The position numbers were made by a program, and so were the translations under genes. From Onchidella celtica (lineage: Eukaryota > Mollusca > Gastropoda > Systellommatophora > Onchidiidae): DNA of 64,000 bases. The stretch is from assembly GCA_963931925.1 (NCBI GenBank), contig OZ007571.1, positions 36,064,233 through 36,128,232 of the forward strand, in the 5' to 3' direction. Below the pieces are notes generated by a model. It searched no databases. It saw only the letters and a program-made list of their open reading frames with translations, and was not told the origin of the DNA. How positions within the stretch are numbered: the first letter of the stretch is position 1; each line of letters starts with the position of its first letter. Below are positions 10,901-43,954 of this stretch, piece by piece.

Positions 10901-13900
10901 TGGACAAATGCTTGTTGGAGTGGAAACCAGTCAATAGCAGACTGATGAGGATGAGGATGAAAGGACGACACACAAACATCACTGTCATCCAATGTTATGC
11001 ACCAACCAACGAAAACGACAACACAGACAAAGACGACTTTTATGAACAACTCCAGGGGGAAATGGACATGACACCACGGCATGATCTCATCATTGTCATG
11101 GGAGACCTCAATGCTAAGGTAGGTAAAGATGATATAAATTATGAAAGAGTAATAGGAAAACATGGAACTGGAACAAGGAATGACAATGGAGAAAGGCTTG
11201 TGGATTTTTGTGCCTTGAACAACTTAGTCATCGGAGGGACCCTTTTCACACACAGAGAAATTCACAAACTCACATGGAATTCTCCAAATGGAAGAGACAA
11301 GAACTAAATAGACCATTTGATGATCAACGGTATGTGGAGACGATCCCTTCTAGATGTGAAAGTGAAAAGAGGAGCTGACGTAGCCAGCGACCACCATCTA
11401 GTGGCAGCACTTATCAAAATTAAACTGAACAAGACCGGAATCAAGACATCAAAGCAAAGACACCTTAATATTCAGAAACTGAGAGATGCAAGTGTTAGAA
11501 ATGCCTTCAACATACAAGTCAAGAACCGATTCCAGGCTCTACGAGAGTCTGATAAGAACAACCCTAATGAAAGAGGAATCGATTCAGAGTGGAAAAGAGT
11601 AACTACAGTGTACACAGAGAGCAGTGTAGCCTGCCTTGGATTTAATGAGAAAGGGAAAAGCAAGGAGTGGATCCAAAAAAGAACATGGGATGTGATCGAG
11701 GAGAGGAAAGTCATGAAAAAGAAACTCCTACAAGTGAAATCGGAAAGGCTGAAAGAGAGGTACCAACATAGCTACACAGAGTTAAATAAGAAAGTGAAGA
11801 GACTAGTAAAGAAAGATAAACGAGAAGCCATGGAACAGCTAGCGGCAGATGCGGAGGAGGCAGCAGCAAGAGGAGAACAGGGTAAGCTCCACAAGATCAC
11901 TAAGCGCATTTGTGGCAAGTACGGTGGAAGACCAAGTGTTCCAATCAAAGACAAGAATGGGAAACTACTGACTACAGAACGAGAACAGGATACACGCTGG
12001 ACAGAGCACTTTCAGGAATTACTAAACCGGCCACCACCTGAAGATAGAATAATAATACAAGATGCTGCTGAAGACCTTGACATCAACATAGATCCACCAA
12101 AGAAAGAAGAGATAGTGGCAGCAATAAAGAGCCTAAAAAACAGCAAAGCCCCAGGAAAAGACAACTTGACTGCAGAACTGTTCAAAGCAGATCCGGATCA
12201 GTCAGCCACCATCCTTCAGCCACTGTTCACAGCTATCTGGGAAGCAGAAGCAGTACCAAAGAGCTGGAATGAAGGCAGAATAGTGAAAATACCCAAGAAA
12301 GGAGCACTCAGCGATTGCAACAACTGGCGTGGTATCACTCTCCTTTCTATACCCAGCAAAATCCTTGCCAAGATCATTGTGCAACGTATGTCAGATGCTG
12401 TGGACAAGACACTGAGAAAGGAACAGGCCGGATTCCGAAAGGGGAAAGGATGCATTGACCAGATCTTCACACTCCGAAACATCATAGAACAGTGTTCAGA
12501 ATGGCAAAGGCAGCTCTATGTGAACTTCGTTGACTTCGAAAAGGCCTTCGACAGCATCCACAGAGAGAGTATATGGCGCATTCTTCGGCACTATGGGATT
12601 CCCAGCAAGCTTGTTGAACTCATCAAAAGCTTTTACACGAACTTCAGTTGCAGTGTCGGAAACAATGATGCATCCTTTGAAGTGAAAACTGGTGTACGGC
12701 AAGGATGTGTGATGTCAACAATTTTGTTTAACCTCGTAATCGACTGGATTATGCGGAAAACTACAGAGGATGCACCAAGAGGCATCAGATGGACACTCTT
12801 CGACAACCTAGAGGATTTGGACTTTGCGGATGACCTTGCGCTATTGTCACATAGTCACCAACACATGCAAGATAAGACGCAGAGACTACATAATTTTGGA
12901 TGCAAAGTAGGCCTTCGGATTAGCCAGAAGAAGACAGAGATTATGACCCTAAATGTAGACACTCCAGCACCAGTGCAAGTAGATGACAAGAACCTCACCA
13001 CGACGGACAAATTTAAATACCTTGGTAGCATTATCAGACCAGAGGGTGGCACAAAGGAGGACAACCAAAGTAGGCTGGGAAATGCAAGGGCTGTCTTTCA
13101 AAGTATGAGCAACATCTGGAAATCGACACAATACGGCATCAACACCAAGATCAGACTGTACCAAAGCTGTGTCCTATCCACACTCCTGTATGGATCAGAG
13201 TGTTGGCGAATGACAGAAGGTGACCTCGCCAAGTTGTCTTCCTTCCACACCACATGTCTTCGTAGGATTCTCCGCATCTTTTGGCCAAACAAGATTTCTA
13301 ATCAGGAACTACTAAGGCGATGCAAGCAAGAAGAAATAGCCAACATCATCACGAAGAGACGATGGAGATGGCTTGGACACGTGCTGCGAAAGGAAGCAAA
13401 TTCTATAACCAAAACAGCACTTCAGTGGACACCGGATTGACGGCGCAAGCGAGGCAGACCCAAGGCAACCTGGCGGAGAACAATCGAGGCAGAGATGAAA
13501 TCCTTCAATCACTCATGGGGAACTCTCGCAAAGATGGCCCAGGACAGACAGGGCTGGAGATCCTTTGTTGCTGCCCTAAGCACCAGTGGGTGCAACAGGA
13601 AATAGTAGTAGTATTGGTTTGATCCTTTGTGTAATGACTGTAATCATTTTGCAGTAACTAAATATGTTGATACTGAAAGTAGAAATAATGGGTTATTATT
13701 TCATATAAATTTTTCATGTGCAGATTTTACTTTCTGTAAAATGTCAAGGTCTGATAGACCACTTTGGGAAAAAGGTCATTAGCATTCTTATTTGTTTTTG
13801 AAAAAACTATGTTCATGTGAAAAAAATCCATCCTGATCACCCGAAGAGTTGTTTGAACAAAGCCGTAATGCCTGCCAGTCATGCCTGACAAGCCAGGGGT

Positions 13901-17751: not shown

Positions 17752-20274
17752 TCATGACTTGGCCTGACCAGAATATTGGATCTTTAGGAAGTGGATACGG
17801 GGCTTGTTGGAGCCTGTATTCAGTGCAGTATTGTTGGTAGTATTTCTATATTTTCTATGCTGGAAATCAAAGTAAACATCCTGATCCAGAGCTTTGAAAA
17901 CCCGAAAGTTGTTAGGCTTATTCTCTGGTGATGGTTGGCTGATGTAATGAAACTGACGTTTGATCTCGCCCTCTGACACTTTAGATGAGCAACCCATATA
18001 TAGAGGTTCTGTTACGGTAGGCTGAATTTCCTCTGCTGTAGACATCTTTTTGTCTGGCAGGGAAGCAGGGGGCTGGTTTAGAAGTGAACGAGTGGTTAAA
18101 GCTTCTGAAACCAATGATGATGCTTCTGCCAAATTAGCTAAATTCTCCTCAGATGCTCTGAAAGCACTATATAGCTTTGATTTCCTATACTCTGGTCTCA
18201 TTGACTTGGATGTTTCAGAACATTTGTCCAGATCCTCATCCATGTAGTCCTCATCAAGTGCCCGGTTTGTTTCCTGCATTTTGGCTATAGTGTTTTCTCT
18301 ACCAGTAGATTTCTTACTTGTATGATTGCTTGGCCTCCGGTCTACAATACCCACACACTGGAGATGATCTAAGATTTCGGTCTTCAAAATGGGTGAAGAA
18401 ATCGATTTTTGTTTGGAAGTAGATCCCCACGACGTCATGTTAGCTTGTCGTCTCTCCGACAAATCATGCCGGTTTCTTGAGGACTCATCTCTGCCCATGC
18501 CGGCCTGCGCAGTGTTGCATGTGCTGTCTGAGGAGAATTTCTTTGGCTTGGAGTTTGGTGAGGCTGCTTTGGTAATCGACAGAGACGGCAGAGATTGACC
18601 TACCAGTGAGATTTGGCCAGCAGACGCCTTTGGCCTGTGATAACTTGCCTCAAATACAGCGGGAGAAGGTGAGATCAATTTATCTCGTAAGCCCGTGTTG
18701 TAACTTCTTCTAGATGCCATGATCTTTCTTCTGTCCGTACCCAAGGCTCTGCTATTATAGGTTGGAGATGCAGCCACCGGGCGTAACTCCAGCATGTCTG
18801 GAGATTCCGTTTGATGGAAACTTTTACCTACAATAGCATCAGGGAACAGGTGATTTGGTGGCCACACACTCATGGTCTCACCACCATCTGTCTGATGGTC
18901 CATGTACTGAGGACGGAATCGATTTGGGCCCTCGGCACTGTTGATACTCTCTATCCTTATATCGTCTGCCACGCTGTGATTGCCGAGCCTTTTCATCTGG
19001 CGATAGTTGGTAATGGCGTCCAGTGTCTCACTTTGCGCTCTGGTGTTTGACGGTACACGTGTGCTTTCATCCGGATCGAGTACAGAGACCGGTGGATTGG
19101 CCATGTGACCGGCAGGGATGCTGTGAAAACAATCCTGCTCCATCTCATGTCGTGGGTAATCTTTTCGTGGTGCAATGATGACCATCGGCGGTGCTTCACA
19201 ATGGAGATGTGTGTCAATAGGCTCATTGATGTCTATGGCTTCACATTTTGCCAACTCAGTTAATTTTTTTACAATTTCCCTTTTCTTTGAGGTTGGTATA
19301 TGCCTTTTGACGGCCTGCATCTGGTGTACTGTTTGCGCCCGTTGATTCTCCTTTGACGTCCTGGGAGTTATCGTGCCATTTAAGTTGTGGCTATTTATGT
19401 CTCTTGTATCATCCTGCTTCTCTGGAGTTCTGAACTGGCTAAAGCTACTGCCGTCCATTATTGAGCTGTGGAAAACAGGTGGAGAGTTGATCGAAACTTG
19501 AAAGTGTCGATTCGCATGGCTGGATATGTGATTGTCCACGGGGCTATACTGACTGACTGTTGTCTGTCCTGAATTGCTGGTTGAAGCACCGTCAAACACA
19601 GCAGTTTCTGTTTGAACGACTTTTCCGCTGGCTTCCTCTCTGGCTCGGGCTCTGAAGTTTGTCATGTTTGTCAACTGGTCTTTTGCGTCAGACAAACTCT
19701 GATGAATAAAGGATCCTTGCTCCCCGTGAGTTCGAGGTCGAGGAATAGAGATAGTCCGGGCTCGTTGACTCAACAACTGAGTCAGGGCCGTGTTAGGCAT
19801 GGCTGCGCTGGTGGAAGGTGCTGAAGTCAAGGCTACTGAACTGTGAAGTTCAGATAAAGAATTAACAAGTTGTCCACCACTATTACTGAGATCACTGGCT
19901 TCTTTCTCAAAAGTTAGCCTAGTTCCAGCACTGGGGATACTGTGCTTCAGTAGAGTGGCACCTTTAATTCTCACTGGTATTCCGCTACCACCTCGACAGT
20001 CCTTGTCTCCAACGGCAGCAACAATATTCAACAAGGCAGCTTGTCTCAGCGTCTCTTGCAGATCTCTCATGGACTTTAAATCCTGTCGTGCTGAAATATC
20101 AGTACGTGATCTGGTCAACAAGTTAATGCCATTTTCACTTTTATCTCTTGTCTTATGTTCTGATAAAGGCGGCGAATGCTCGACGGTTTGGTCAAACCGT
20201 ACTGGTTCTTTTTTAACAAGGCCTAGTGGGCGTGGCCTGGTCATTAATGCCTTCACCTGACTGACGTCACCCAT
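17752..20274 (-). CDS. Uncharacterised 840-residue intronless protein
   Basis: One uninterrupted minus-strand frame of 841 codons. The start is taken at the ATG at 20272-20274: it has A at -3 and G at +4, and the in-frame extension upstream lacks an ATG. I do not recognise the protein. It is rich in Ser, Thr, Asn, Arg and Pro with many short charged stretches. It has no signal peptide, transmembrane segment or zinc-binding pattern, so it looks mostly disordered. A short amphipathic helix (DLQETLRQAALLNIV) near residues 70-85 and a more ordered-looking C-terminus (EIKRQFHYISQP then VYFDFQHRKYR) stand out. A frame this long is very unlikely by chance in this AT-rich DNA. It could be a single-exon gene or the large exon of a longer gene. 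Confidence 0.75.
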   Translation of the reverse strand: MGDVSQVKALMTRPRPLGLVKKEPVRFDQTVEHSPPLSEHKTRDKSENGINLLTRSRTDISARQDLKSMRDLQETLRQAALLNIVAAVGDKDCRGGSGIPVRIKGATLLKHSIPSAGTRLTFEKEASDLSNSGGQLVNSLSELHSSVALTSAPSTSAAMPNTALTQLLSQRARTISIPRPRTHGEQGSFIHQSLSDAKDQLTNMTNFRARAREEASGKVVQTETAVFDGASTSNSGQTTVSQYSPVDNHISSHANRHFQVSINSPPVFHSSIMDGSSFSQFRTPEKQDDTRDINSHNLNGTITPRTSKENQRAQTVHQMQAVKRHIPTSKKREIVKKLTELAKCEAIDINEPIDTHLHCEAPPMVIIAPRKDYPRHEMEQDCFHSIPAGHMANPPVSVLDPDESTRVPSNTRAQSETLDAITNYRQMKRLGNHSVADDIRIESINSAEGPNRFRPQYMDHQTDGGETMSVWPPNHLFPDAIVGKSFHQTESPDMLELRPVAASPTYNSRALGTDRRKIMASRRSYNTGLRDKLISPSPAVFEASYHRPKASAGQISLVGQSLPSLSITKAASPNSKPKKFSSDSTCNTAQAGMGRDESSRNRHDLSERRQANMTSWGSTSKQKSISSPILKTEILDHLQCVGIVDRRPSNHTSKKSTGRENTIAKMQETNRALDEDYMDEDLDKCSETSKSMRPEYRKSKLYSAFRASEENLANLAEASSLVSEALTTRSLLNQPPASLPDKKMSTAEEIQPTVTEPLYMGCSSKVSEGEIKRQFHYISQPSPENKPNNFRVFKALDQDVYFDFQHRKYRNTTNNTALNTGSNKPRIHFLKIQYSGQAKS

Positions 20275-23200
20275 TGTACAACGACTACAACACAATATTG
20301 ATGTAAACCCAGGCTGCGAGAGTTACCCGCTCACGCGACTATGTTTGTACAAAGAACGAACTAGAGGATTATGGTTTCCATTGTACATGCCCAGTATCCG
20401 TGCTGGATTTCCAATTAAAGTGGCAATGGTATGTGAAACTGCAAAAAGGCAGTCAGTTGTGACCGGCCTCTCTAGAGCATAAAGGGCAATGTAGGCCTAC
20501 AGGTTACTTTTAACTGATCTCGTCAAAGGCCAGTGTTCTGTGGTCTACTCGGCATAACTCTTCAATAAGTTAATTAAAAAAAAAAAAACAGTGCCAAATA
20601 CTACGAACAGTTGTTCTGTTCAAGGAAAGGGGATATTAGTTGTGATAGAATCCATGTCTCGATTCCAACTGGTAAAGACAGATGTCATAAAAAAATTAAT
20701 GTATCGTGCGGCTGACGACTTGGTCTTGCAGCGAAGAGAATTTGACAACGTCTTTTCTGTATGGGAGATGGGATATGAAGCATGACATCAAAGGTGCCGA
20801 CAAGCCTCAACACATGGAATCAACTGTGAAAGAGACAAAGAGACTACAATAAATCAAATGGCAATTATGATTAGTCACTGATGTGGGTGAGAAAGTCACA
20901 TTGGGAATCAACTACATGTAAATGGGAAAGATACTAGTCTACATGAAGTAGTATTGTAGTACATGTGTACTAGTAGTTCCCTAAACACGGCACGGAACCC
21001 CAATAATCTCCGGGCAAACGCTGTAAGGATAATAAAATCCCCGGTTATAATGTATCGATGTAACTCGCAACGAATGCATTATCTATCCCACAGAGGAAAA
21101 AAACAAAGCAACCTTCTCAGTAACAAGCTACACCAGAATTTACATTCAAAAACAAAGAAATACTAGAGAAAATCGGCCGGCTGTGGATATAGGCCTATAC
21201 ATGTATGTAGAGAGAGGGGATGAGAAAGTTTACGTAAGTGAAAACCGGCCTTCAGATTTTAAATTCCCACCAGCAACTTCTATAAATATCCTTAAGGTAA
21301 CAAGAAATCTTGAGGTTCGGGATCGGATGGTGTTGCAAGAGTCTCACAATGACATCGATTGGACGAGACTTCTCTTCTGTCTTCGGCAGGGACACTTCAA
21401 GCCAGGGGTGGGGGGGGGGGGAGGGGATGGAGAAGGAGGAAGACGGGGAAATCCCCTTAGTTATGCAAGTGTTTAGATGTCAGAAGCGCATTATTTATCC
21501 AGAAAATTTGTTAAAGCTAGTGCAGTCTGTCTGAAATAAACAAACGGAAATGGGGATGGATCGGCCACACGTTACGAAAGCCTGAATCCAACATCACCAG
21601 GCAGGCTCTGGTCTGAATCCACAAGGAAAGTGGAAAGTGGGTCGACCAAAACAGACTTGGCGCAGGAGTAACGATGCTGAGTTAAAGGCAGCCGGAATGG
21701 CGTCGACCGAGCTAGGGAGGACCTGCCAGAACCGCGTGTGTTGGAGGAGGGTTGTTGCGGCCCTATATTCGTCAAGGAATCAAGAGGCTTAAAGAGAAAG
21801 AGAATTGCAGTCTGTGATGGGGCTCTTTGCTTCTGAAGGCCTCATCTAAGACTGTGAATCCAAGAGAAAATTTATCCAGTGCATAAACTATAATCATTGA
21901 CAATTTTATTCCAAATTATATCATGGAAGACACTGTTAGAACAGTAGCTGTATGCTATGTATTTTCTGTCCTTCTTTCGTCTGAGACAACACTGATAACT
22001 GCATGAACATTATGTCGGAACAGATTTCCAAAAAAAAAAATAATAATCAGTTCCGCATTATATTTTCTGTAGGATATCACCAGTAAACCACTGATTATTT
22101 AGAGCAGAATTGATCTTCATCATGCTGGTGTGCCGCAAAGAACTCAGAACTCGTTTCAGGGGTGTCGCCAGTTTAAATTCAAACTGCCGTGACAAACTTA
22201 GATCCAAGCACATACTGTATGATATCGTTTTTCTGTGCAAAACATACGGAAATATGAAAATGAATAACATCGTACCAAAAACACAGTGAGCGGCTCAATG
22301 AGAGAAGCACAATGAACTGCGCTACATTCAGACGCCGATATCCACATCCTGCTCTGTGGGCCTGTCACTGTTAATCAGACTATGATTTTATTTTTAGCAC
22401 ATCAAAATTACGAATCCTACCTGTGTTACAAATAATGATAGTAATAGTAAGTCATACATGTACAAATAACAGATACTTAACTGGAATTAAACATAGACCT
22501 GCAGTGTTTCTATTTTTCAGGTCATAAACATTTCGATTGTTTCAAATTTGTTACTTTGACATCAAATCCTTGACATTTCGGTTTTAGTTGCTTTTATCCT
22601 TTTGTGACAGTTTCATCTTTCGTTCTCCTTTTAGGTTAAAAAAGGCAAAGAAAAAAAAAATCGAATTTTGTCATCGTTACCAAATTTATCCACCGAGCGC
22701 CAAAATGAACGCAATCATTTACGGTGTGCACCCACCGACAACGCCGACTTCCTCTCGGGACATTTGATTATTGGTGGCAACACCGACGGATTTGTTGTGG
22801 AGGGACTCAATAGTTAGGTAGTTCATCACTGCCTAAAGATGGAAAAAAGTTGGCATGGCTTGTGGGCTGAACTATTAGATTAGGCTTACTAAAACGTCCA
22901 TTTATAAGGTCCGTTGGTATGTGTGTCTGTGTGTTAGTGTATGTGTGCCCATGTGGATGTGAGTTAGTGCTTGCCAGTGACAGATGGGTTGCTGAAGCCA
23001 ACAATACCATGCCTATGAGAATCGATGCCATACAGCTTGCAGCCACAAAAACCGAAGGCAGCATTCGTAACTCAATTTTTTACCAACCACTTCCAGAATA
23101 ACTCGTGGCATCTCGATTGTAATTTTATTTTCTTCTTCTTCTTCTTCTTCTTCCTTAAAACTGGTTTTCTCAGATTTGAGTATCTCACCAGTGCGCAATA

Positions 23201-23551: not shown

Positions 23552-23557
23552 CACGAT
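23552..23557. repeat. 6-bp target duplication, left (palindromic element)
   Basis: CACGAT, repeated exactly at 28459-28464, directly abutting the terminal AGT of the element. Confidence 0.85.
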
Positions 23558-23807
23558 AGTAGTGTAGGAATGGACGTCTTGGAGCCATCTTTAAAAATTT
23601 TTAAAAATCACAACATTAAAAACATATATTACAAAATTCAACCCCTATTAATACATAAAATTGCTATTTTATGGACACCATGGACTCACCTTTTAAAATT
23701 TTACCCCCTATCCCACAGTTTGAGAACCAGCAATGTCCCTTTTAAAACACATAAGCTTTTTCAAAAAAATAAACCCCCGAGTTTGAGAATCTCAGAAAAT
23801 TCAAGTT

Positions 23808-24125
23808 TTAAATGTATTTAATTCCACTTCCTATTAAATTATTTAATATTTGTTTTGAGTTCGGAGATAGAACTCCGTTCGTGTTCGAAGATACATTTGA
23901 ACTATTTACTTTTTTTGGTTTAAAAACTTTATCAACTATAAATTTATTAACAGCTTTTTGTCCTAAGTCAGTTGCTGTTTTCTTTGCAACATTTGATACA
24001 ACTTCTTTTGCAACTTTGCTAGTAACAGCTGAAATTATCGAATCAAAAAAACCTGATCCATAATATTTATTACTATATCCTCCATAAACATATTTTCTTT
24101 TGTTGTTTTTATTTATTACCAACAT
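23808..24125 (-). CDS. 105-aa small protein, left-arm copy
   Basis: Same protein as at 27891-28208. It has a GSGFFDSI segment after a basic, Tyr/Gly-rich N-terminus, an amphipathic Ala/Val/Lys-rich helix (about residues 30-65), and the C-terminal end NNLIGSGIKYI. It is read outward towards the element terminus and directly follows the broken gene. The function is unknown; style and position suggest a minor virion or cement-type component. Confidence 0.6.
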   Translation of the reverse strand: MLVINKNNKRKYVYGGYSNKYYGSGFFDSIISAVTSKVAKEVVSNVAKKTATDLGQKAVNKFIVDKVFKPKKVNSSNVSSNTNGVLSPNSKQILNNLIGSGIKYI

Positions 24126-24126
24126 T

Positions 24127-24990
24127 TTATATAGCAATTTTTAACTGTAATTTTTTATACTCATTAGTGTTAATACTTTTTTGTCTGTATAATTCATCTA
24201 TAATACTTACAATTTCATTTACAACACCTGTATTTCCTGCTTCTTTACTAGCTGTTAATAATGATAATCTCTTATTAAAGCATTAGGACCTGAAGAAAGA
24301 AATCCTGTTCCGGAATAAGTTAAAACTTCTTTGATCATGATCATCATAAAATTGTTTATTTTCCCAAATCGGTTTTACGATATTCATGTATTTCTGTCCT
24401 CCACTAGATTTAGGTCTTGGATTATTGGGATCATTATTTTGTTTTATGGCATTAGTAGAAAATAAAATACGTGCATAATTATTTCTGTCTTCATCTAAAA
24501 AATTTTGAGGATCTCTATTGGTTAATAATTCCTACAAACCAGGTGTTCCTTCATATTTATCTTCTCCAATAATAATATCATCATCATCAACTTTTATTTC
24601 TTTATTTCCAATATAAAATTTATCATCTACAGAATAAATTCCAAAAGTTTTATCCGCATTAGTTGTACCTAAGTATTTCTTTAAATAAGTTGCTGCTGTC
24701 GGACCAATTTGTTGTATTGGAGAAGAGGCAATTGCTTGTAATGCAGGCATTTTCAATTGTTGACCTTGTTCTATAGCAAGTGGAATTTTTTGTATTTCTT
24801 TCTTAGTTTCTTCTGTTGCTTTTTGTGTACTTTCTGTGATAGGAGCAAATACTTTGGAAAATTCTCTTTTCATTTCAATATCTCCTACTCTTTTGCTTAA
24901 GTTACTTAATTGAATTTTTTTTTTGGTTTGTAAAAATTCATTAACAATAGCTTCACGTTTTGAAGGATCTTCAATTTTTAAAAAAGACAT
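24127..24990 (-). pseudogene. Broken copy of the GTPGL-family gene, left arm
   Basis: Mirror copy of 27025-27889. The first 152 codons are open and end at an in-frame TAG directly after GTPGL. The reading resumes in frame and later needs a frame change to reach the C-terminal segment. This arm also lacks one base within that C-terminal segment (near 24270) that the right arm has, so it is more damaged. The shared TAG shows that both arms descend from one already mutated copy. Confidence 0.8.
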
Positions 24991-25006
24991 TTTAATGGAA
25001 TAAAAA

Positions 25007-25528
25007 TCAAACCAGTTTTTTTATTTTTTTCAATGGATCATCTATATTTAATTCAGGATCACTTACTTTCTTATTTTTTATTGCATTTTTCATTTCTCTA
25101 AATTTTTTTTCTTCATCTAAAATAAGTTTGAATTCTTCATCTGAAATTTTTCCATCTTCAAGAGTATTAGAAATATAAGTTTGAATTGTATTAAGTTTTG
25201 ATTCCAATAAAAATAAGATTTTCTGATGTTTATCAGCTTTATGTTGTAATTTTTTATTTATGTATCTTAAAACTATACTTAATAAACTTGTACTTATTGA
25301 AAGACCTTCTATAATAATAGCCACAGGAATGTTAACCACTGTAGATAAAAGTATTACTCCTGTTGTTCCCATTCCAATGGCTATAGTTTTTAAAGTTACA
25401 TCAGTTCCGTCAATTATATTTAAAGCTTTTGAATATTTCTTAACTGTTATTCTTTTGTTTTCTTTAGTTCTTTCAAAAGACTTTTGAATATCAAGAATTT
25501 TTGTCATTCTGTAATCTGAAGCTTCCAT
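25007..25528 (-). CDS. 173-aa two-helix membrane protein, left-arm copy
   Basis: Intact mirror copy of 26487-27008, differing by one residue (Asp instead of Gly at position 5). The start is the ATG at 25526-25528; the short upstream extension has no ATG. See the right-arm entry for the description. Confidence 0.65.
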   Translation of the reverse strand: MEASDYRMTKILDIQKSFERTKENKRITVKKYSKALNIIDGTDVTLKTIAIGMGTTGVILLSTVVNIPVAIIIEGLSISTSLLSIVLRYINKKLQHKADKHQKILFLLESKLNTIQTYISNTLEDGKISDEEFKLILDEEKKFREMKNAIKNKKVSDPELNIDDPLKKIKKLV

Positions 25529-25591
25529 TTTTATAATAAATTTTTTGACCAAAACAATTCTTGGTTACACCAACACGGTCTCTGACCTTGG

Positions 25592-25733
25592 TTACACCAG
25601 CATATTTATAAACGGAATACTTTTAACCAAATCACTCAAAAAACCTTCACCGTTATAAACTTGTCCTTCTCGTTTTAAATACAATCCATCTCCTTTAAAC
25701 TCCCCATTACCGCTTCCTTTTACAGTTCCTAAA
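25592..25733 (-). pseudogene. Truncated 3' end of the 126-aa gene, left arm
   Basis: Mirror of the last 47 codons of the gene at 26043-26423, covering the last GDGLYL repeat and the C-terminal segment ending NMLV. It is cut exactly where the left arm stops at 25733, so the left copy has no start. This shows that the right side is the original orientation and the left arm is the added copy. Confidence 0.8.
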
Positions 25734-25786
25734 GCAAAGCTGAACTTCGCGTTACGTTCAACTTCGCGTTACGTTCAGCTTTGCTT
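25732..25786. repeat. Hairpin at the inner arm junction
   Basis: A perfect 14-bp stem (AAGCAAAGCTGAAC at 25732-25745, complement at 25773-25786) around a 27-base loop. The region also contains a direct repeat, TTCGCGTTACGTTCA, two times. It begins within two bases of the point where arm identity ends. Confidence 0.8.
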
Positions 25787-25828
25787 ATCGACTCCGTCGA
25801 AGTTGACGTTAAAATTTATTTCTTGAAA

Positions 25829-26008
25829 ATGGCATATGAAAAAGTTCAATTAAATATTTCTGATAATCAGAAAGAAAAAATTCAAAGAGCTATGAAAGAG
25901 AATCTTCCTGTTACTATTAGAATTACTGCAGAACCGGGAAATGATGTTTTAGCATTAACACAAAGACAAATAACTAAATTGAAAAAATCATTTAATCAAA
26001 TGAGCTGA
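25829..26008 (+). CDS. 59-aa small protein in the unique centre
   Basis: Starts MAYEKVQLNISDNQKEKI and contains PVTIRIT and LALTQRQITKLKK. The start is the ATG at 25829, preceded by AAA. It is a short soluble-looking protein with a beta-like stretch followed by a basic helix, 34 bp upstream of the 126-aa gene on the same strand. I cannot name the family. Its tight spacing with the next genes suggests a late-gene cluster taken from the parental virus-like element. Confidence 0.55.
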   Translation: MAYEKVQLNISDNQKEKIQRAMKENLPVTIRITAEPGNDVLALTQRQITKLKKSFNQMS

Positions 26009-26042
26009 TATTACTCTAAGTAGAAAACAAATAAAATATAAC

Positions 26043-26423
26043 ATGAAAATTGAAGGAGGGTTTCTGGCTGCTCTTGCTAGAATGGCACTCCCATTGTTAT
26101 CTAAAGTTGTTCCATCAGTAGCAAAAGCCATAGGAATAGGCGGGCTTACGGGTTTAGCAAGTAGTGGTGTTCAAAAATTATTGGGAGACGGTCATAGACC
26201 TTCCTATGGAGTTGGAGACGGATTGTATTTACAAAAAGGTGGATGTCTCTGTCAAATTGAAACTGATGGAAAAGGTTTATATTTAGGAACTGTAAAAGGA
26301 AGCGGTAATGGGGAGTTTAAAGGAGATGGATTGTATTTAAAACGAGAAGGACAAGTTTATAACGGTGAAGGTTTTTTGAGTGATTTGGTTAAAAGTATTC
26401 CGTTTATAAATATGCTGGTGTAA
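26043..26423 (+). CDS. 126-aa Gly-rich hydrophobic minor-capsid-like protein
   Basis: It opens with MKIEGGFLAALARMALPLL and continues with a Val/Ala/Gly-rich hydrophobic helix up to about residue 45. Three G(D/K)GLYL repeats follow (about residues 59, 77 and 95), then a C-terminal segment ending SIPFINMLV. A GGFL start followed by an amphipathic helix recalls the short membrane-active or core minor proteins of adenovirus-like and Polinton-type viruses; this is an inference from style. It spans the centre/right-arm boundary at 26282, so it is the only full-length copy in the element. Confidence 0.6.
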   Translation: MKIEGGFLAALARMALPLLSKVVPSVAKAIGIGGLTGLASSGVQKLLGDGHRPSYGVGDGLYLQKGGCLCQIETDGKGLYLGTVKGSGNGEFKGDGLYLKREGQVYNGEGFLSDLVKSIPFINMLV

Positions 26424-26486
26424 CCAAGGTCAGAGACCGTGTTGGTGTAACCAAGAATTGTTTTGGTCAAAAAATTTATTATAAAA

Positions 26487-27008
26487 ATGGAAGCTTCAGG
26501 TTACAGAATGACAAAAATTCTTGATATTCAAAAGTCTTTTGAAAGAACTAAAGAAAACAAAAGAATAACAGTTAAGAAATATTCAAAAGCTTTAAATATA
26601 ATTGACGGAACTGATGTAACTTTAAAAACTATAGCCATTGGAATGGGAACAACAGGAGTAATACTTTTATCTACAGTGGTTAACATTCCTGTGGCTATTA
26701 TTATAGAAGGTCTTTCAATAAGTACAAGTTTATTAAGTATAGTTTTAAGATACATAAATAAAAAATTACAACATAAAGCTGATAAACATCAGAAAATCTT
26801 ATTTTTATTGGAATCAAAACTTAATACAATTCAAACTTATATTTCTAATACTCTTGAAGATGGAAAAATTTCAGATGAAGAATTCAAACTTATTTTAGAT
26901 GAAGAAAAAAAATTTAGAGAAATGAAAAATGCAATAAAAAATAAGAAAGTAAGTGATCCTGAATTAAATATAGATGATCCATTGAAAAAAATAAAAAAAC
27001 TGGTTTGA
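26487..27008 (+). CDS. 173-aa protein with two hydrophobic helices and coiled coil
   Basis: The N-terminus has the charged stretch YRMTKILDIQKSFERTKEN. Two adjacent hydrophobic segments follow (about residues 45-65 and 67-85, including GMGTTGVILLSTVVNIPVAI and LSISTSLLSIVL) and then a long charged helix with ISDEEFKLILDEEKKF. This is the layout of a two-pass membrane protein with a cytoplasmic coiled coil. It is intact in both arms. It lies 63 bp after the 126-aa gene and 16 bp before the next gene. I recognise the general type from invertebrate Polinton-like insertions but know no function. Confidence 0.65.
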   Translation: MEASGYRMTKILDIQKSFERTKENKRITVKKYSKALNIIDGTDVTLKTIAIGMGTTGVILLSTVVNIPVAIIIEGLSISTSLLSIVLRYINKKLQHKADKHQKILFLLESKLNTIQTYISNTLEDGKISDEEFKLILDEEKKFREMKNAIKNKKVSDPELNIDDPLKKIKKLV

Positions 27009-27024
27009 TTTTTATTCCATTAAA

Positions 27025-27889
27025 ATGTCTTTTTTAAAAATTGAAGATCCTTCAAAACGTGAAGCTATTGTTAATGAATTTTTACAAACCAAAAAAAAAA
27101 TTCAATTAAGTAACTTAAGCAAAAGAGTAGGAGATATTGAAATGAAAAGAGAATTTTCCAAAGTATTTGCTCCTATCACAGAAAGTACACAAAAAGCAAC
27201 AGAAGAAACTAAGAAAGAAATACAAAAAATTCCACTTGCTATAGAACAAGGTCAACAATTGAAAATGCCTGCATTACAAGCAATTGCCTCTTCTCCAATA
27301 CAACAAATTGGTCCGACAGCAGCAACTTATTTAAAGAAATACTTAGGTACAACTAATGCGGATAAAACTTTTGGAATTTATTCTGTAGATGATAAATTTT
27401 ATATTGGAAATAAAGAAATAAAAGTTGATGATGATGATATTATTATTGGAGAAGATAAATATGAAGGAACACCTGGTTTGTAGGAATTATTAACCAATAG
27501 AGATCCTCAAAATTTTTTAGATGAAGACAGAAATAATTATGCACGTATTTTATTTTCTACTAATGCCATAAAACAAAATAATGATCCCAATAATCCAAGA
27601 CCTAAATCTAGTGGAGGACAGAAATACATGAATATCGTAAAACCGATTTGGGAAAATAAACAATTTTATGATGATCATGATCAAAGAAGTTTTAACTTAT
27701 TCCGGAACAGGATTTCTTTCTTCAGGTCCTAATGCTTTAATACAGAGATTATCATTATTAACAGCTAGTAAAGAAGCAGGAAATACAGGTGTTGTAAATG
27801 AAATTGTAAGTATTATAGATGAATTATACAGACAAAAAAGTATTAACACTAATGAGTATAAAAAATTACAGTTAAAAATTGCTATATAA
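27025..27889 (+). pseudogene. GTPGL-family gene, broken by TAG and a frameshift
   Basis: The 152-codon N-terminal part (MSFLKIEDPSKREAIVNEF, a long helical region, then FGIYSVDDKFYIGNKEI and YEGTPGL) ends at TAG at 27481-27483. The same frame stays open beyond it (TNRDPQNFLDEDRNNYARI, PRPKSSGGQKYMNI) to about 27690. The C-terminal part (SGTGFLSSGPNALIQRL, NEIVSIIDELYRQKSI) lies in a frame shifted by one, ending at 27889. Full length would be close to 290 residues. It resembles a family of uncharacterised proteins repeatedly found in invertebrate genomes within virus-like elements. Both breaks occur in both arms. Confidence 0.75.
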
Positions 27890-27890
27890 A

Positions 27891-28208
27891 ATGTTGGTAA
27901 TAAATAAAAACAACAAAAGAAAATATGTTTATGGAGGATATAGTAATAAATATTATGGATCAGGTTTTTTTGATTCGATAATTTCAGCTGTTACTAGCAA
28001 AGTTGCAAAAGAAGTTGTATCAAATGTTGCAAAGAAAACAGCAACTGACTTAGGACAAAAAGCTGTTAATAAATTTATAGTTGATAAAGTTTTTAAACCA
28101 AAAAAAGTAAATAGTTCAAATGTATCTTCGAACACGAACGGAGTTCTATCTCCGAACTCAAAACAAATATTAAATAATTTAATAGGAAGTGGAATTAAAT
28201 ACATTTAA
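27891..28208 (+). CDS. 105-aa small protein, right-arm copy
   Basis: The start is the ATG at 27891, one base after the stop of the preceding broken gene. It has a basic N-terminus (INKNNKRKYVYGGY), then GSGFFDSI, an amphipathic helix (about residues 30-65) and the C-terminal end NNLIGSGIKYI. It is identical to the left-arm copy as far as I can see. The last 250 bp of the element after it are non-coding. A small minor virion-type protein is an inference; no catalytic motif is present. Confidence 0.6.
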   Translation: MLVINKNNKRKYVYGGYSNKYYGSGFFDSIISAVTSKVAKEVVSNVAKKTATDLGQKAVNKFIVDKVFKPKKVNSSNVSSNTNGVLSPNSKQILNNLIGSGIKYI

Positions 28209-28458
28209 AACTTGAATTTTCTGAGATTCTCAAACTCGGGGGTTTATTTTTTTGAAAAAGCTTATGTGTTTTAAAAGGGACATTGCTGGTTCTCAAACTG
28301 TGGGATAGGGGGTAAAATTTTAAAAGGTGAGTCCATGGTGTCCATAAAATAGCAATTTTATGTATTAATAGGGGTTGAATTTTGTAATATATGTTTTTAA
28401 TGTTGTGATTTTTAAAAATTTTTAAAGATGGCTCCAAGACATCCATTCCTACAGTACT

Positions 28459-28464
28459 CACGAT
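28459..28464. repeat. 6-bp target duplication, right (palindromic element)
   Basis: Second CACGAT, immediately after the terminal ACT of the element. Confidence 0.85.
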
Positions 28465-30139: not shown

Positions 30140-30219
30140 TAACTACTACTACTACTGCTACTACTACTAGTACTACTGCTGCTGCTACTACTACTACTAC
30201 TAATACATTGTTGTGTACC

Positions 30220-30251
<32 letters not shown>

Positions 30252-30258
30252 TACTAGG

Positions 30259-30318
<60 letters not shown>

Positions 30319-30325
30319 GGCTACA

Positions 30326-30365
<40 letters not shown>

Positions 30366-30367
30366 GG

Positions 30368-30412
<45 letters not shown>

Positions 30413-30430
30413 ATAATAATAATAATAATA
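30140..30430. repeat. (ACT)n/(CTA)n microsatellite, ~290 bp
   Basis: Long ACT/CTA trinucleotide tract. It is interrupted three times by ACCACCACTACTAGGCTAC-type units, so it is a compound, partly amplified block, and it ends in (AAT)n. Confidence 0.9.
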
Positions 30431-30756
30431 TCTGTCGAATCTAAGACAGTCCAAGTTTCATAATTTTTCTGCAATTCATGTCAGTGAACAATGTCACAGT
30501 AGTTGTTCCTCGTGATAGTATAGGCTACTAATGTTTATCTTTCAGTCCCTTTCCACATCGTAACTGAAGGAAGCACCACACAAACATATCGTTGTCAAGA
30601 ATATTAATTTGTACCAGTGTTTACATTAGTCGATATACAGACGGTCAAAATGGTGAAAGAATAACAGATAAAATCATGGAACATGAACAGATAAACAGAT
30701 AATTATTCCAGGCAAGTTGAGGAGACATGACATAATAATACACACATTCTAATTGC

Positions 30757-30920
30757 AACAGATTATAATAATGTGACACACAGACAGGCGACAGATTATA
30801 ATAATGTGACACACAAACAGGCAACAGATTATAATAATGTGACACACAGACAGGCAACAGATTATAGTAATGTGACACACAGACAGGCAACAGATTATAA
30901 TAATATGACACACAGACAGA
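30757..30920. repeat. 33-bp minisatellite, about five copies
   Basis: The unit begins GCAACAGATTATAATAATGT and continues with GACACACAGACAG. Five nearly identical copies sit head to tail with no spacers. The period is divisible by three, which explains the repetitive open frames across it. Confidence 0.9.
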
Positions 30921-30978
30921 AAGCAAACATGCACACTCAGAGCTAACTGGATAGACAGCTAGATAGATATGTACAAGA

Positions 30979-31086
<108 letters not shown>

Positions 31087-35622: not shown

Positions 35623-37149
35623 CTGGAGAGGGACCCCCTAAAGAACCTTTATCTTGCCATGCCATTTAGATACATTATTCTTAAAACCTATTGACAGACT
35701 TACCCTTAGATTCATCTATTGCATTTTAGTTCATTATTTCATATTGTACTGTTATAACATTGTGATTTCAGGTCCTTTTTACTTTAGATTAAGAGACAGA
35801 TAGGTTATAGTCAATTTGTATTAATATGACATTTTATTTCAATTTCATATAACGAGCTGATCATCCCATTGACCCGACGACACCGGCGAGGGACACCATT
35901 CACCTTAGATATCTACCTGCAACAGAAAGACGACACTTTTTTGGACTTGGAACGAGCTATGGATTGAGGACATCACCAACTGAATTCCTCTAGTAAAAGT
36001 TAAGTGAACCATCTGATTGTCAGTTTTGAGGAGGGCGAGGTGCTTTCCGCCCTCAGTGTTTACAGGCTTTTTTTCCTTTACTATATGTTTAGTTTAAGAG
36101 CGGGAGGTTGGATGGGATCATAGTTTAGCATATCTTCTTTGCCATTTCGAAGGATATTAGAGTGCCTTGGTGGCTATTGATAACTCGGGGGGATTTGCTT
36201 CACTGTGAATAGTTCTATTAGGGATCCATTATTCGTATAGATTGTGACGTTTCTCTTGCTTCCTCACATTTCTTTAGGAAGATGTCTCTCCTGTCTTTTT
36301 CTTAAACTTTCTGTAATATAAGTTAGGACTTGTAGGGTCTGTTATCGTTCGTCTTCCTTGTGAGTCTAGCGTCTTGTTTAGTGTATTTTTTTTTCCTTCC
36401 TTATAAACTTTAAACTAGTATATTGACATTGCTATGTTTACAATATATGCCTGAGGTGTTTCACGTGCTAAAACCACGTTGAATTGTAATCTGGTATTGA
36501 TATGTGAGAGAGAGAGATACAAAATTTTTGGTCACGTGCTAATTTCACGTCGAATATATAGAGAATAATTTTGCAGTGGTAACAGAGGACACTGCGTGTT
36601 CGCGTTTTGAGAGTTTTTGCAGTGGTAACAGAGGACACTGCGTGTGCGCGTTTTGAGAAGAGAGAGATATTCCAAATTTTTCGCGTTGAGAGAGAGATAT
36701 ATTTTCGATTCGTCGCGTTGAGAGAGCGATACATTTTTGACAGTGATAACAGAGGACACTGGTTCGTCGCGTTGAGAGAGATATAAATTTTGAGAGTGAT
36801 CACTCAAGACACTGATTTGTCGCATTGAAGGCGATACATATATATTTTATTGCAGTGGAATAGACGGCACTGCCTTACTAGTATTCATATTCAGAGAGAG
36901 AGAGATAAAATTTTTGCAGTGGAAGTGACACTGCCTGCAATTTACAGAGAGAGATAGAACGTTCTTTTCGCGAAGCAGTGGTAACATAGGACACTGGATT
37001 AATATTGAGATGAGTGACTGTTAGAGATAATATAATTGATACCGCGGTATACCGTAACAGTAGGTAAATACTTACTAATTGTGCACACACTAGCGTGCCA
37101 GTGTTTTGATTCTATACGAATCAATACGAGTAAGTTTTTAATACACATT
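35623..37149 (+). other. Retrotransposon leader with putative primer-binding site
   Basis: About 1.5 kb of non-coding leader between the 5' LTR and the gag ATG. TGGAGAGGGACCC at about 35624 starts with TGG just after the LTR, as primer-binding sites do; the cognate tRNA was not identified. The distal third is full of CAGTG...CACTG units (separate entry). Confidence 0.55.
36572..36995 (+). repeat. Degenerate array of CAGTG...CACTG hairpin units
   Basis: Seven units share the pattern CAGTGG-TAACAGAGGACACTG or a decayed version, near 36574, 36617, 36739, 36793, 36853, 36915 and 36975. Each has complementary ends (CAGTG/CACTG) that could form a small hairpin. They alternate with GAGAGAGAGATAT and TCGCGTT(T)GAGAG stretches. 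Confidence 0.7.
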
Positions 37150-40100
37150 ATGGCCGATTTCCTCAAATACATTGAATCTGCCAAGGCCCTGGGTATACCA
37201 GAAGAAGAACGCGCCTCCTGGTGCGAACGACAAATACAGCAGGACCGAGACCGGGAGGATCGGTTAGCAGCAAGAGAGAGAGAAAAGGAACAAAGAGAAA
37301 GAGAAAGAGAAAAAGAAGAGAGACATAGAGAAAAGGAACAAAGAGAAAGAGAAAGAGAAAAAGAGGCTGTGGAGCGAGAACAGAGGAAGCGTGAGATAAC
37401 GTTAAAGAAATTAGAGCTGGAGTCCTTTGTGACCCCCACTTCGTCATTTCTTACACCGCGGGATTTTCCGCATCGGAGTGATTTATCCCCGCGTCAAGGA
37501 TACCAGAGACATTCTTTTTACGAGCCTCGCCCGTATTATCGTGGCAACTATCCAAGCCATCAACATAACCGGCTTCAGAGACCGCCCCGGCGAGTGTATT
37601 TTAGTAATAATCATGATTATGATAGACCGCAGAGTCTGCCTTATCGTGGACACGATTCACACCGTATTATGTGCTTCAGGTGTAATCAGTTCGGCCACAT
37701 ACAAAGATTTTGTACCGTTAAAATGGGAGCGGCAAAGGCCTGCTCTGTACAATCTACACCCTATACAGATGTTGGTTATACTAATAAATCTTCATCGCAA
37801 TCAAAAGCTATTCCAGTCATGTCGGCCCTACATGAACTGGGTGAATTAACATTTTACCAGGGCCGCGTTAACGCGATTCGCGCTTCCGTTCTACGTGACT
37901 CCGGATGCACGACTATCGGCGTTCGGCAGTCACTAGTCCGTCCAACACAATTTTTGGATAGGGATGTAACTTGTATTACTACTTTTGGCGGATCTGTAGA
38001 GCGATTCCGTCTTGCAGAAGTTTATATTGATACACCTTTTCTCACAGGTATTGTTACCGCATGTGTACTGCCTAATCCGGTGGCTGATTTAATCATAGGG
38101 AATGTACCTCAAGTAATAAAGTTTCCTATCGGTAACTTGGAAATTTGGACTGAGGATGACAGTGTTGCTTGTGCGACAACACGCCTACAGTCGACTCGAC
38201 GAGCAGACAGTGCATTGAGTAACCCTACTATTGAATTGAACATAACGTCTAGCGCATTCCATGATGAGCAACAGTCAGACCCCACATTGAAACATTTGTT
38301 TACTAAAGTTGATCCTACAGCGCCGGATACCTCTAAGTTTCTTATTAAAGATGACTTATTATATCGTAATTTTCGGAATAAGCGAGAGACCGTTATGCAG
38401 CTTGTAGTACCAAGATCTTTTCGTCGCGACATTATTCGTCTCGCGCATGACACTTCCTTGGCGGGTCACCAAGGAAAGGCCAGAACTAAGTCTCGAATAC
38501 TATCGCAATTTTTTTGGCCCAGTATTTACGCAGATGTAAACCGGTTCGTATCAACATGTGACGTATGTCAGAAACGTACTCCTAAAGGGAGAGCATCGCG
38601 GGCTTCTCTGCAGGAGATGCCAATGGTATCCAGACCATTTGAGCGCGTTGCCGTAGATATAGTTGGCCCTCTACACAAGTCAGACAGAGGACATCGCTTC
38701 ATACTTTCTGTCATTGACTACGCAACCCGTTGGCCAGAGGCCATTCCACTAAAAGACATTTCAGCCGATCATGTGGCTGAAGCCCTTATTACTGTTTTTT
38801 CGCGTCTTGGATTTCCGGTTGAAATTTTATCGGACAGAGGTCCACAGTTTACCTCTGAACTTTTTAAGAAAGTCTTGGAATTGGTAGGGATTAAACAAAG
38901 ATTGACATCTCCATACCACCCACAGTCTAATGGCTGCTGTGAACGATGGAATGCTACCATGAAAGCTATGCTTGCGCGGGTTTCGGCCGACAAGCCGACT
39001 GATTGGGATCGACAGCTCCCCGCTATTCTCTTTGCATACCGAGAACTACCGAACGCATCGACGGGTTTTTCCCCCTTCGAATTATTGTATGGTCGCAAGC
39101 CGCGTGGTCCAATGGCCATACTCCGTGATTTATTCGCCGGATCAGACACCGACGACAACGATACGCGGTCTGCATATCGATACGTTGTAGACTTGCGACA
39201 TAGAATTCTTAATGCATGTCAGCTCGCACAAAAATCTTCGAGTGCGCATGCGAGTCTTTATAAAGTATATCGTGATCAGGGTAGCCGATTGCGAACCTTG
39301 GCCGTCGGAGACCAAACTCTTGTTCTCCTTCCGGAGACGAAAAATAAACTCCTTCTTACATGGAAGGGGCCTTTTAAAGTCCTAAACAGACTTTCTCGAG
39401 TAAATTATCTTATCAAGATTCGGGGACAGGACAAAGTGTTCCATATAAATATGTTAAAGCAGTACCTGTCCGACGATGATAATCGTCAGAATAATCGCCG
39501 AAATGTGGTTGCTCAGGCCAATGCGGCCTTAGTTTCAGTTGACGATGATGATCCTATTAAGATAGAGCATTCAATCCCCGCACTGCAATCTTCTGAAAAT
39601 ACTTCGGATGTACATATAAATCCAGATCTGTCTGAATCGCAAAGACAAGATATAAGAGATTTGCTTAACGAGTTTACTACGGTCTTTACTAATCTACCAG
39701 GTAATACTTCATTGGTACAGCATGTTATAAGATTAAAGACGGATATACCCGTCTTTGTTAAACCATACCCGCGTCCGCTGCACGCACAGGAGACTATGAT
39801 AACCGAGGTACGTAACATGTTTCACCTGGGAGTGATAGAGCGATCGACGAGCCCATATAACTCACCCATCGTCTTAGTGAAAAAAAAAGATGATACAGTG
39901 CGTTTTTGTATTGACTATCGTAAACTTAATGAGGTTACGATATATGACGCTGAACCGATTCCCAACCAGGAGAATCTTTTTGCGCAGTTAGCGAGGGCAA
40001 CGATTTTTTCTAAAATTGACCTTTCCAAAGGCTATTGGCAAATTCCGCTTGATGAGAATAGCAAGCAATATACCGCTTTTCAGACCCCGTTGGGTCTTAT

Positions 40101-40998
40101 GCAGTGGCGCTATATGCCTTTTGGATTAGTTACAGCCCCTGCCACTTTCGCGCGTATGATGACAATATTGCTCCAGAATATGAATTCCGTGTTGTCGTAT
40201 TTTGACATTTGTATTTATGAAACCGATTGGTCGGGCCACCTCGCAGCCCTACGTCAAGTTTTTATTGCTCTTCGTCGAGCTGGCCTTACGGCGAAACCCA
40301 GTAAAGTGTTTTTAGGATACAATGAAATTAATTTTCTGGGCCATACAATTGCCCATGGCGTTCAGACCCCTAATGACAAGAAGATAACTACCATCTTAAA
40401 GCTTCAAGCCCCTCGAACTAAGAAAGAAGTTCGCAGTTTATTGGGCTTTCTTAATTATTATAGAAAGTTCATTCCAAATTTTTCTTCGCTTACAGCTCCG
40501 TTGTCGGACCTCACAAGAAAGAATTTTCCTAATAAAGTGAAATGGACAACCGAATGTACTGATACACTTCGTACCATTCAACGATTGTTTTCGACTTCCC
40601 CCATTCTCATACTGCCAGATATAAACCAAATATTTATTGTCCGCACTGATGCGTCGGACAAGGGATTAGGAGCTGTGTTGTTGCAGGAACGAGACGATAC
40701 CTTGCGGCCGTGTCTATACGCCAGCCGCAAGTTGCTAGATAGGGAATGCCGCTATGCAATTATCGAGCGAGAGTGCCTCGCTATCATTTTTGCTGTAAAC
40801 GCATTTTCGCGATATCTACTCATGTCCGAGTTTATAATTGAAACGGACCATCGTCCGTTGTTATTCTTGAAGTCTAACAGGGCTAAAAATGCTCGATTAA
40901 CGAGGTGGAGTCTTGCACTCCAGGAATACCGGTTTGTTATCCGGGCTATCCCTGGCGGTGACAATTCCCAAGCTGATGTTTTGTCACGTCTAATTTAG
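37150..40998 (+). CDS. Gag-Pol polyprotein, IN before RT
   Basis: 1282 residues from the ATG at 37150, which opens MADFLKYIESAKALGIPEEE; upstream codons of the frame lack an ATG. Order: Glu/Arg-rich coiled coil with a repeated block (about 25-92), zinc knuckle CFRCNQFGHIQRFC (about 175-188), aspartic protease RDSGCTTIG (about 248), integrase HHCC zinc finger (about 425-460) and DDE core (Asp about 502, SDRGPQF about 561, Glu in CCERWNA about 598). Reverse transcriptase follows (FCIDYRKLN about 919, SKIDLSKGYWQIPL about 956, the catalytic box near 1016) and then RNase H (RTDASDKG about 1165, ETDHRPL about 1231), ending soon after ADVLSRLI. The catalytic box reads YFDI instead of the usual YxDD, so one catalytic Asp is missing although the frame is open. 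Confidence 0.93.
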   Translation: MADFLKYIESAKALGIPEEERASWCERQIQQDRDREDRLAAREREKEQREREREKEERHREKEQREREREKEAVEREQRKREITLKKLELESFVTPTSSFLTPRDFPHRSDLSPRQGYQRHSFYEPRPYYRGNYPSHQHNRLQRPPRRVYFSNNHDYDRPQSLPYRGHDSHRIMCFRCNQFGHIQRFCTVKMGAAKACSVQSTPYTDVGYTNKSSSQSKAIPVMSALHELGELTFYQGRVNAIRASVLRDSGCTTIGVRQSLVRPTQFLDRDVTCITTFGGSVERFRLAEVYIDTPFLTGIVTACVLPNPVADLIIGNVPQVIKFPIGNLEIWTEDDSVACATTRLQSTRRADSALSNPTIELNITSSAFHDEQQSDPTLKHLFTKVDPTAPDTSKFLIKDDLLYRNFRNKRETVMQLVVPRSFRRDIIRLAHDTSLAGHQGKARTKSRILSQFFWPSIYADVNRFVSTCDVCQKRTPKGRASRASLQEMPMVSRPFERVAVDIVGPLHKSDRGHRFILSVIDYATRWPEAIPLKDISADHVAEALITVFSRLGFPVEILSDRGPQFTSELFKKVLELVGIKQRLTSPYHPQSNGCCERWNATMKAMLARVSADKPTDWDRQLPAILFAYRELPNASTGFSPFELLYGRKPRGPMAILRDLFAGSDTDDNDTRSAYRYVVDLRHRILNACQLAQKSSSAHASLYKVYRDQGSRLRTLAVGDQTLVLLPETKNKLLLTWKGPFKVLNRLSRVNYLIKIRGQDKVFHINMLKQYLSDDDNRQNNRRNVVAQANAALVSVDDDDPIKIEHSIPALQSSENTSDVHINPDLSESQRQDIRDLLNEFTTVFTNLPGNTSLVQHVIRLKTDIPVFVKPYPRPLHAQETMITEVRNMFHLGVIERSTSPYNSPIVLVKKKDDTVRFCIDYRKLNEVTIYDAEPIPNQENLFAQLARATIFSKIDLSKGYWQIPLDENSKQYTAFQTPLGLMQWRYMPFGLVTAPATFARMMTILLQNMNSVLSYFDICIYETDWSGHLAALRQVFIALRRAGLTAKPSKVFLGYNEINFLGHTIAHGVQTPNDKKITTILKLQAPRTKKEVRSLLGFLNYYRKFIPNFSSLTAPLSDLTRKNFPNKVKWTTECTDTLRTIQRLFSTSPILILPDINQIFIVRTDASDKGLGAVLLQERDDTLRPCLYASRKLLDRECRYAIIERECLAIIFAVNAFSRYLLMSEFIIETDHRPLLFLKSNRAKNARLTRWSLALQEYRFVIRAIPGGDNSQADVLSRLI

Positions 40999-43124: not shown

Positions 43125-43954
43125 CATCAGCACCTTCTCCTTTACCAATCGGCTTGAACCGTGAGGAGAAACAGCGATGCCATCAGCTGTTCCGCAAAGC
43201 AGCCAGAGTCAGCATCAGCCTGACGGAGCTGGAGCGACAGTTAGCGCAGAGGAGCCGGAGAAATAAGCTTCCCAATACGACACTAAACATTAAAACAAGC
43301 TCACGACCTGAGACCAAATCATTTGTTGTCCGGCGGGACAAAAAATTACAAAGTCAGGAAAACAGCAAGCACAGGTCTGTTTTTAGAATGGATAATCGCT
43401 CCAGTAACTCCCCCCTGGCCAGGAGGAAACAGGTCATGAGGGCTGCTTGGAACAGAACAACATCTGAAGACATACAATACAGATTCACTCTCCCTCTACA
43501 CAACGGCAACACCCTGGCTTCTCCTGTCTTACCCTCCTCATTCCACGCTACGTCTGGTTGCACTCACGGTCGATTTCAGAACTCAAGCAAAAGATTCAGG
43601 GCGAATCTCACTACCTTTATCCTATCTTTCCTCGATCTTATAACTGTGTCACCCAAACTCACACCAAATTTCAAAATCTAAAGCATCACAATGCCCCTTT
43701 ACGGTCACAGATGATATCTATGTCCAGCAGATCTATCCCAGTACGGTAGGCAGAGAGTTAGCAACAAAGACCAGTCAAACGTTCATACCGAGCTCAAACA
43801 GTCTAATCACAGGACATGCCGGTGCTACAACGGAAGGTTTGCATTCCGTTCTCATCCCCAAGACCTTCAGCCTTCCTCCACGCCATGCGTTCAAGCTCCA
43901 CTACTTCAATTGGCTGGGCGTCAACTAAAGGAGAGGTTTGCATGCAATTCGGGG

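Follow-up and report, generated by a model that had tools for sequence, protein, structure and literature searches.

How does a mobile element come to be a mirror image of itself and still be framed by a clean target-site duplication? The question is raised by a Polinton-like element in a chromosome of the gastropod Onchidella celtica, which arm-to-arm alignment showed to be a 4.9-kb palindrome. It lies in a stretch of 64,000 nucleotides (contig OZ007571.1, positions 36,064,233 to 36,128,232), hereafter the window, to which coordinates refer unless another contig or locus is named. Replication of Polinton-like elements is believed to proceed on linear DNA with protein priming, and a sequence-only reading of the window had proposed that a parental element lost one half, gained an inverted copy of the other in the manner of snap-back virus genomes, and was captured as a mobile element in this defective form. 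We found that the palindrome arose by fold-back of a strand and copying at a short inverted repeat, TGAAC/GTTCA, a conclusion that is well supported, and that the place of this event was probably the chromosome.

Direct comparison identified the 6-bp target-site duplication CACGAT at 23552–23557 on the left and at 28459–28464 on the right; a random match of this length at a fixed offset is expected about once in 4096. The left arm (23558–25733, minus strand, 2176 bp) aligned in inverse orientation to the right arm (26282–28458, plus strand, 2177 bp), which is the right end of the element. The arms are more than 99.8% identical, differing by three substitutions (23562/28454, 23575/28441 and 25515/26500) and a single-base indel near 24272/27743. 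The outermost part of each is a terminal repeat (left, 23558–23720, plus strand; right, 28296–28458, minus strand) that is common to both ends of parental elements. Left and right repeats are mismatched at two places in their outer 18 bp; the left terminus reads AGTAGTG and the right terminus, read inward, AGTACTG. The flanking duplication, the AGT termini and the near-identical 2.18-kb arms of the earlier reading were all borne out, and the palindrome is confirmed apart from the claim that its centre is wholly unique. We considered whether a fold-back or misjoined read had produced this structure during assembly, as palindromes are described as troublesome to sequence in the accessible portion of one report (PMC4057610) and a single copy of this form was found. 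However, comparison of the outer flanks over 3 kb on each side revealed nothing in common beyond chance-length matches, which argues against a fold-back artefact. The flanks differ and yet carry a perfect duplication, the arms are not identical, the centre contains an inverted loop and a one-sided deletion, and the window sits in a 74.6-Mb contig. We therefore regard an artefact as highly improbable.

The centre held the mark of the event. The region between the arms (25734–26281) has the 548-bp length originally given, but it is not wholly unique since it contains a stem and an inverted repeat. The two halves of the stem, at 25732–25745 (what is left of the inner portion of the left copy) and 25773–25786, pair at 14 of 14 positions, with TGAAC at 25741–25745 and GTTCA at 25773–25777 marking the fold point. 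Between them is a 27-nt loop (25746–25772) made up of a 17-bp tandem repeat that is inverted compared with parental copies, where it is located between the integrase gene and a pX-like gene. The parental repeat is direct in all 26 copies with sequence there (two of 28 had none) and is followed by TTCAGCTTTGC in 22 of the 26; the fold-back site sits just past the position of the parental integrase gene. The inverted tandem repeat, the 14-bp stem and the 27-nt loop are explained by a strand that folded on its own TGAAC/GTTCA and was copied from there. The 495 bp on the right of the stem (25787–26281, plus strand) are collinear with parental copies and their left twin is gone, indicating that the initial spacer of the palindrome was only the 27-nt loop and that the one-sided loss occurred in the same event or later.

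This anatomy also bears on a different origin, in which two opposite insertions, or nested elements, later lost their middle. A deletion can fuse two repeat copies that lie in opposite orientation, but here the second insertion would have had to land exactly at one duplication, neither the fold-back stem nor the near-identity of the arms would be explained, and no traces of a second duplication were present in the 3 kb compared on each side. It is the least probable of the explanations that we weighed. Fold-back at short inverted repeats, by comparison, is an established route to inverted duplications in the accessible portions of two studies (PMC3907307, PMC10622511). The products that these describe after double-strand breaks resemble the window element in having a central loop and, where the strand folds, short inverted repeats; they differ in running toward the chromosome end, whereas the palindrome stops exactly at the terminus of a mobile element.

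To place the palindrome among its relatives, the host assembly (1.14 Gb in 43 contigs) was searched with one arm, which yielded 449 first-look candidates; of the 40 long places scored, 38 lie outside the window element, and none of these 38 had an inverted partner within 30 kb. Using the terminal 163 bp as a query to locate element ends, we found larger elements with the terminal repeat at each end and read 15 parental end pairs spanning 6.6–23 kb, two of them representing one duplicated locus. The 6-bp duplication was perfect in 14 of the 15 pairs and matched at five of six bases in the fifteenth, as expected of copies at other sites with duplications of their own. Ends started with AGTAGT in 29 of 30 cases and with AGCAGT in one. 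In the five pairs for which 1.5 kb of both ends was compared, the terminal repeats aligned over 132–525 bp, far shorter than the 2.18-kb arms. A 140-bp query spanning the palindrome junction matched in full at the window only, one of 40 scored places among 256 candidates, with a full match expected to rank first; the other 39 places, one of them the window's own right arm, stop at the junction. As far as seen, the palindrome is a relic that occurs once, with no mobile family among the scored copies, and the proposal of a mobile palindromic family was not upheld.

Several parental copies had unusual ends or surroundings. First, the true ends of three copies (C10:48037605-48059395, C18:21822617-21830706 and C4:70823503-70837951) lie beyond the search match; their terminal repeats reach further outward, their outer sequence is different, and AGTAGT and a perfect 6-bp duplication are kept. 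Second, tandem copies of the terminal repeat, about 100 bp each, are present at both ends of the copy at C9:3297886-3314297 (L004, L036), and the copy at C5:45329312-45342770 has an array of this kind at one of its ends. Third, two copies about 115 kb apart (C13:35209781-35220530 and C13:35325307-35336035; L017, L018, L042, L043) have their flanks and duplication in common, indicating that the locus itself was duplicated.

Gene content supported the classification of the parents. A double-jelly-roll capsid protein (PF21738) was detected in three parental copies (E = 5e-53, 1.8e-50 and 1.8e-39), and a packaging ATPase (Pox_A32, E = 1.6e-11) and a phospholipase A2-like domain (E = 1.3e-10) each in a parental copy. 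A putative adenain-like protease gave a weak match to Peptidase_C5, below the curated cut-off (E = 0.0011), and a 277-aa open reading frame (ORF) between the ATPase and the protease, with no Pfam or PHROGs match, is by position a candidate penton-type minor capsid protein. The PHROGs search had no hits other than to endonuclease VII and terminase. In L004, an integrase ORF of 299 aa (L004:4190-5086, minus strand) adjoins the pX-like gene on its inner side; it matched rve at E = 1.6e-5 with 25.5 bits, below the curated 32.6, and a foamy-virus integrase in PDB at E = 0.00045. A tblastn search showed relatives of this integrase in 26 of 28 parental loci, L004 included, with a stop or split in some copies. 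Another rve match, in L034, falls within an extra segment that we take to be a retrotransposon insertion. Long parental ORFs carry motifs that we take to be those of family-B DNA polymerases (PolB), an assignment that neither profile nor PDB searches confirmed: two PolB-like ORFs gave no match to Pfam PolB even at E = 10, and a PDB sequence search gave none for one PolB-like ORF or for the capsid. No relatives of a parental PolB-like ORF or of the parental capsid emerged from scans of viral contigs. The earlier prediction of parents was borne out in the same genome by elements that share the terminal repeat and have both an integrase ORF and a PolB-like ORF.

By these sequence features the parents are classified as Polintons (Mavericks), with which they share 6-bp duplications, AGTAGT ends, terminal repeats, capsid, A32-like ATPase and integrase; the likeness is weaker for the protease match and the PolB-like motifs, and PolB, protease and penton are putative assignments. 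The window element differs from Polintons in being palindromic and in keeping small genes from one end only. The end motif and duplication length of the parents match those in the available part of a survey of vertebrate Mavericks (PMC8097293). Adenovirus-like virion genes together with an integrase also recall adintoviruses and other 'meldviruses', of which variants without PolB and integrase are described in an excerpt of one study (PMC11071296); the hallmarks of adintoviruses are an OTU-domain PolB and a chromodomain integrase, and the likeness here rests on other features. Within the accessible portions of the literature surveyed on Polintons with palindromes, defective or snap-back genomes, terminal repeats and non-autonomous copies, no such element is described.

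What the palindrome itself retains is a set of small genes. A pX-like gene with repeated GLYL motifs (25838–26420, plus strand) is interrupted near 26000 by a small deletion private to this copy, and only its 3′ part is kept in the left arm. Two genes from the ORF list are open in both arms: g3, of 173 aa (26487–27008, plus strand; left-arm copy 25007–25528, minus strand), and g5, of 105 aa (27891–28208, plus strand; left-arm copy 23808–24125, minus strand). Gene g4 (27025–27889, plus strand) is broken by a premature stop at 27481–27483 and a frameshift near 27690, and its left-arm copy (24127–24990, minus strand) has the same stop and frameshift along with an extra 1-base deletion near 24272. 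PolB, integrase and capsid genes were not seen in the element: none of its listed ORFs is a replication or integration gene, a Pfam scan of seven ORFs gave no reliable match, and the parental integrase had no tblastn match at E = 1, in agreement with the initial description of small genes alone in both arms.

The products of these genes have relatives in protein databases, mostly unnamed entries: 115 for g4 (38–47% identity in the 21 aligned), 444 for the pX-like protein (120 of these listed) and 10 for g3. Most listed g4 relatives bear a precomputed Pfam label, PF26634, which may correspond to DUF8207; despite this label, a Pfam scan of five of them gave nothing reliable. Of the 20 relatives chosen for alignment, 19 have the pX-like gene as a single longer ORF. 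A PDB sequence search with g4 found nothing, and scans of viral contigs with the pX-like protein, the g4 alignment and the pX alignment found no relatives. The AlphaFold model of a 126-residue pX-like ORF was not used (mean per-residue confidence, pLDDT, of 60). Relatives of g3 (P0236–P0243) start with YPxL-like and often PTAP-like motifs, which we take to resemble viral late domains, and the g3 in the window is without such an N-terminus. Some g4 relatives (among P0001–P0115) terminate in an alternative frame at comparable positions, either through decay or possibly through frameshifting.

The damage common to both arms provided a clue to the order of events. None of 38 other copies has the premature stop in g4 (28 plus ten further ones, with L017 and L018 counted separately even though they represent a single duplicated locus). 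The frameshift is likewise missing from all of the 28, and from eight of the ten further ones, with one not covered and one unresolved at the site. The deletion in the pX-like gene is absent from all 26 copies with sequence there (two of 28 had none). Among 2625 comparable positions we counted 12 private substitutions; ten are in the right arm, and the left arm shares eight of these ten. The shared private changes either predate the duplication of the arm or spread between the arms through gene conversion. The differences between the arms are distributed in another way, as two of the three substitutions fall in the outer 18 bp of 2177, for which simulation gave a chance of about 2–4 in 10,000, a post hoc figure that assumes differences to fall evenly along the arms. 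Mismatches between the two ends within the outer 24 bp also occur in ordinary parental copies, in 7 of 12 pairs, a count in which one duplicated locus appears twice. The simplest account of shared private changes together with unlike extreme ends is a resident element that still has both of its original ends, the copied arm having been joined to the other side inside the terminal repeat.

Could the palindrome instead be a snap-back defective genome, formed when a truncated strand folded during protein-primed replication, integrated in trans and later converted between its arms? In snap-back defective adenovirus genomes, one end is duplicated inversely around a short loop. The window element has this same arrangement: its fold-back centre is what snap-back predicts, and it carries an element end on each side within a perfect 6-bp duplication. 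The parents encode an integrase and a PolB-like ORF, and the AGTAGT at nearly all of their ends is a type of motif tied to protein-primed replication in the available part of the Maverick survey (PMC8097293). Unlike snap-back adenovirus genomes, however, the window element is integrated, and disabling mutations private to this copy are common to both arms; its outer 18 bp differ at two places where a snap-back copy should be identical, though later mutation is conceivable, and no second palindromic copy occurred among the scored places. Of the earlier proposal, then, the loss of one parental half and the gain of an inverted copy by fold-back of the other stands, while capture of a defective genome is weakened by the shared disabling mutations and the unlike ends. 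Because gene conversion between the arms could mimic both, we keep the snap-back route as a possible origin, though not the one we favour. That the element is a fossil defective interfering genome, palindromic, with two copies of one origin, devoid of integrase and integrated in trans, is a suggestion that we offer only tentatively.

We lean instead toward an origin in the chromosome, in which a resident, decayed Polinton-like copy broke and one of its ends was copied back on itself. Formation in place, rather than capture of a ready-made palindrome, is favoured by a premature stop that both arms share with none of the other copies and by arm differences concentrated where parental ends also differ. 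Three observations tip the balance this way, none of them decisively: the outermost bases are unlike, the arms share their private changes, and no sister palindromes were seen. On this account, a decaying element of about 10–16 kb would have broken in the tandem repeat between its integrase and pX-like genes. A single strand then folded on the TGAAC/GTTCA inverted repeat and was copied out to the element end, as the anatomy shows. The copy may have been joined to the chromosome on the far side by way of the other terminal repeat, keeping the original 6-bp duplication and outermost bases while the rest, integrase and polymerase included, would have been lost. Deletion of the 495 bp beside the fold from one side, possibly in the same event and possibly later, would have stabilized the palindrome, and the end product is a dead relic.

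Several points weigh against formation in the chromosome. For the copy to end exactly at the borders of the element, a second, unobserved step through the other terminal repeat is required, whereas a snap-back genome would be confined to the element ends by itself. Gene conversion from arm to arm in a ready-made palindrome would likewise give shared private mutations and unshared ends, and the integrase of the parents puts the trans-acting enzyme for the snap-back route at hand. Moreover, 'private' rests on at most 38 copies compared with 449 first-look candidates. When three of the eight shared private bases were rechecked in ten further copies, one base was present in one copy, and an unsampled sublineage with the private mutations could exist.

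The rest of the window contains other repeats. By eye, a single ORF of 1320 aa (37036–40998) resembles a Ty3/gypsy polyprotein and two ORFs (10477–13440 and 43929–45098) resemble LINE reverse transcriptases. An ORF of 856 aa lies on the minus strand at 17752–20322, and adjoining ACT, 33-bp and GATA tandem arrays occupy 30142–31086.

To our knowledge, traces of protein-primed replication of the Polinton type are scarce. A palindrome with a clean 6-bp duplication is either the record of an aberrant replication event or the product of in-place fold-back repair between terminal repeats. The anatomy described here, with its fold point, loop, one-sided deletion, terminal mismatches and private mutations, makes the choice between the two testable at one orthologous locus.

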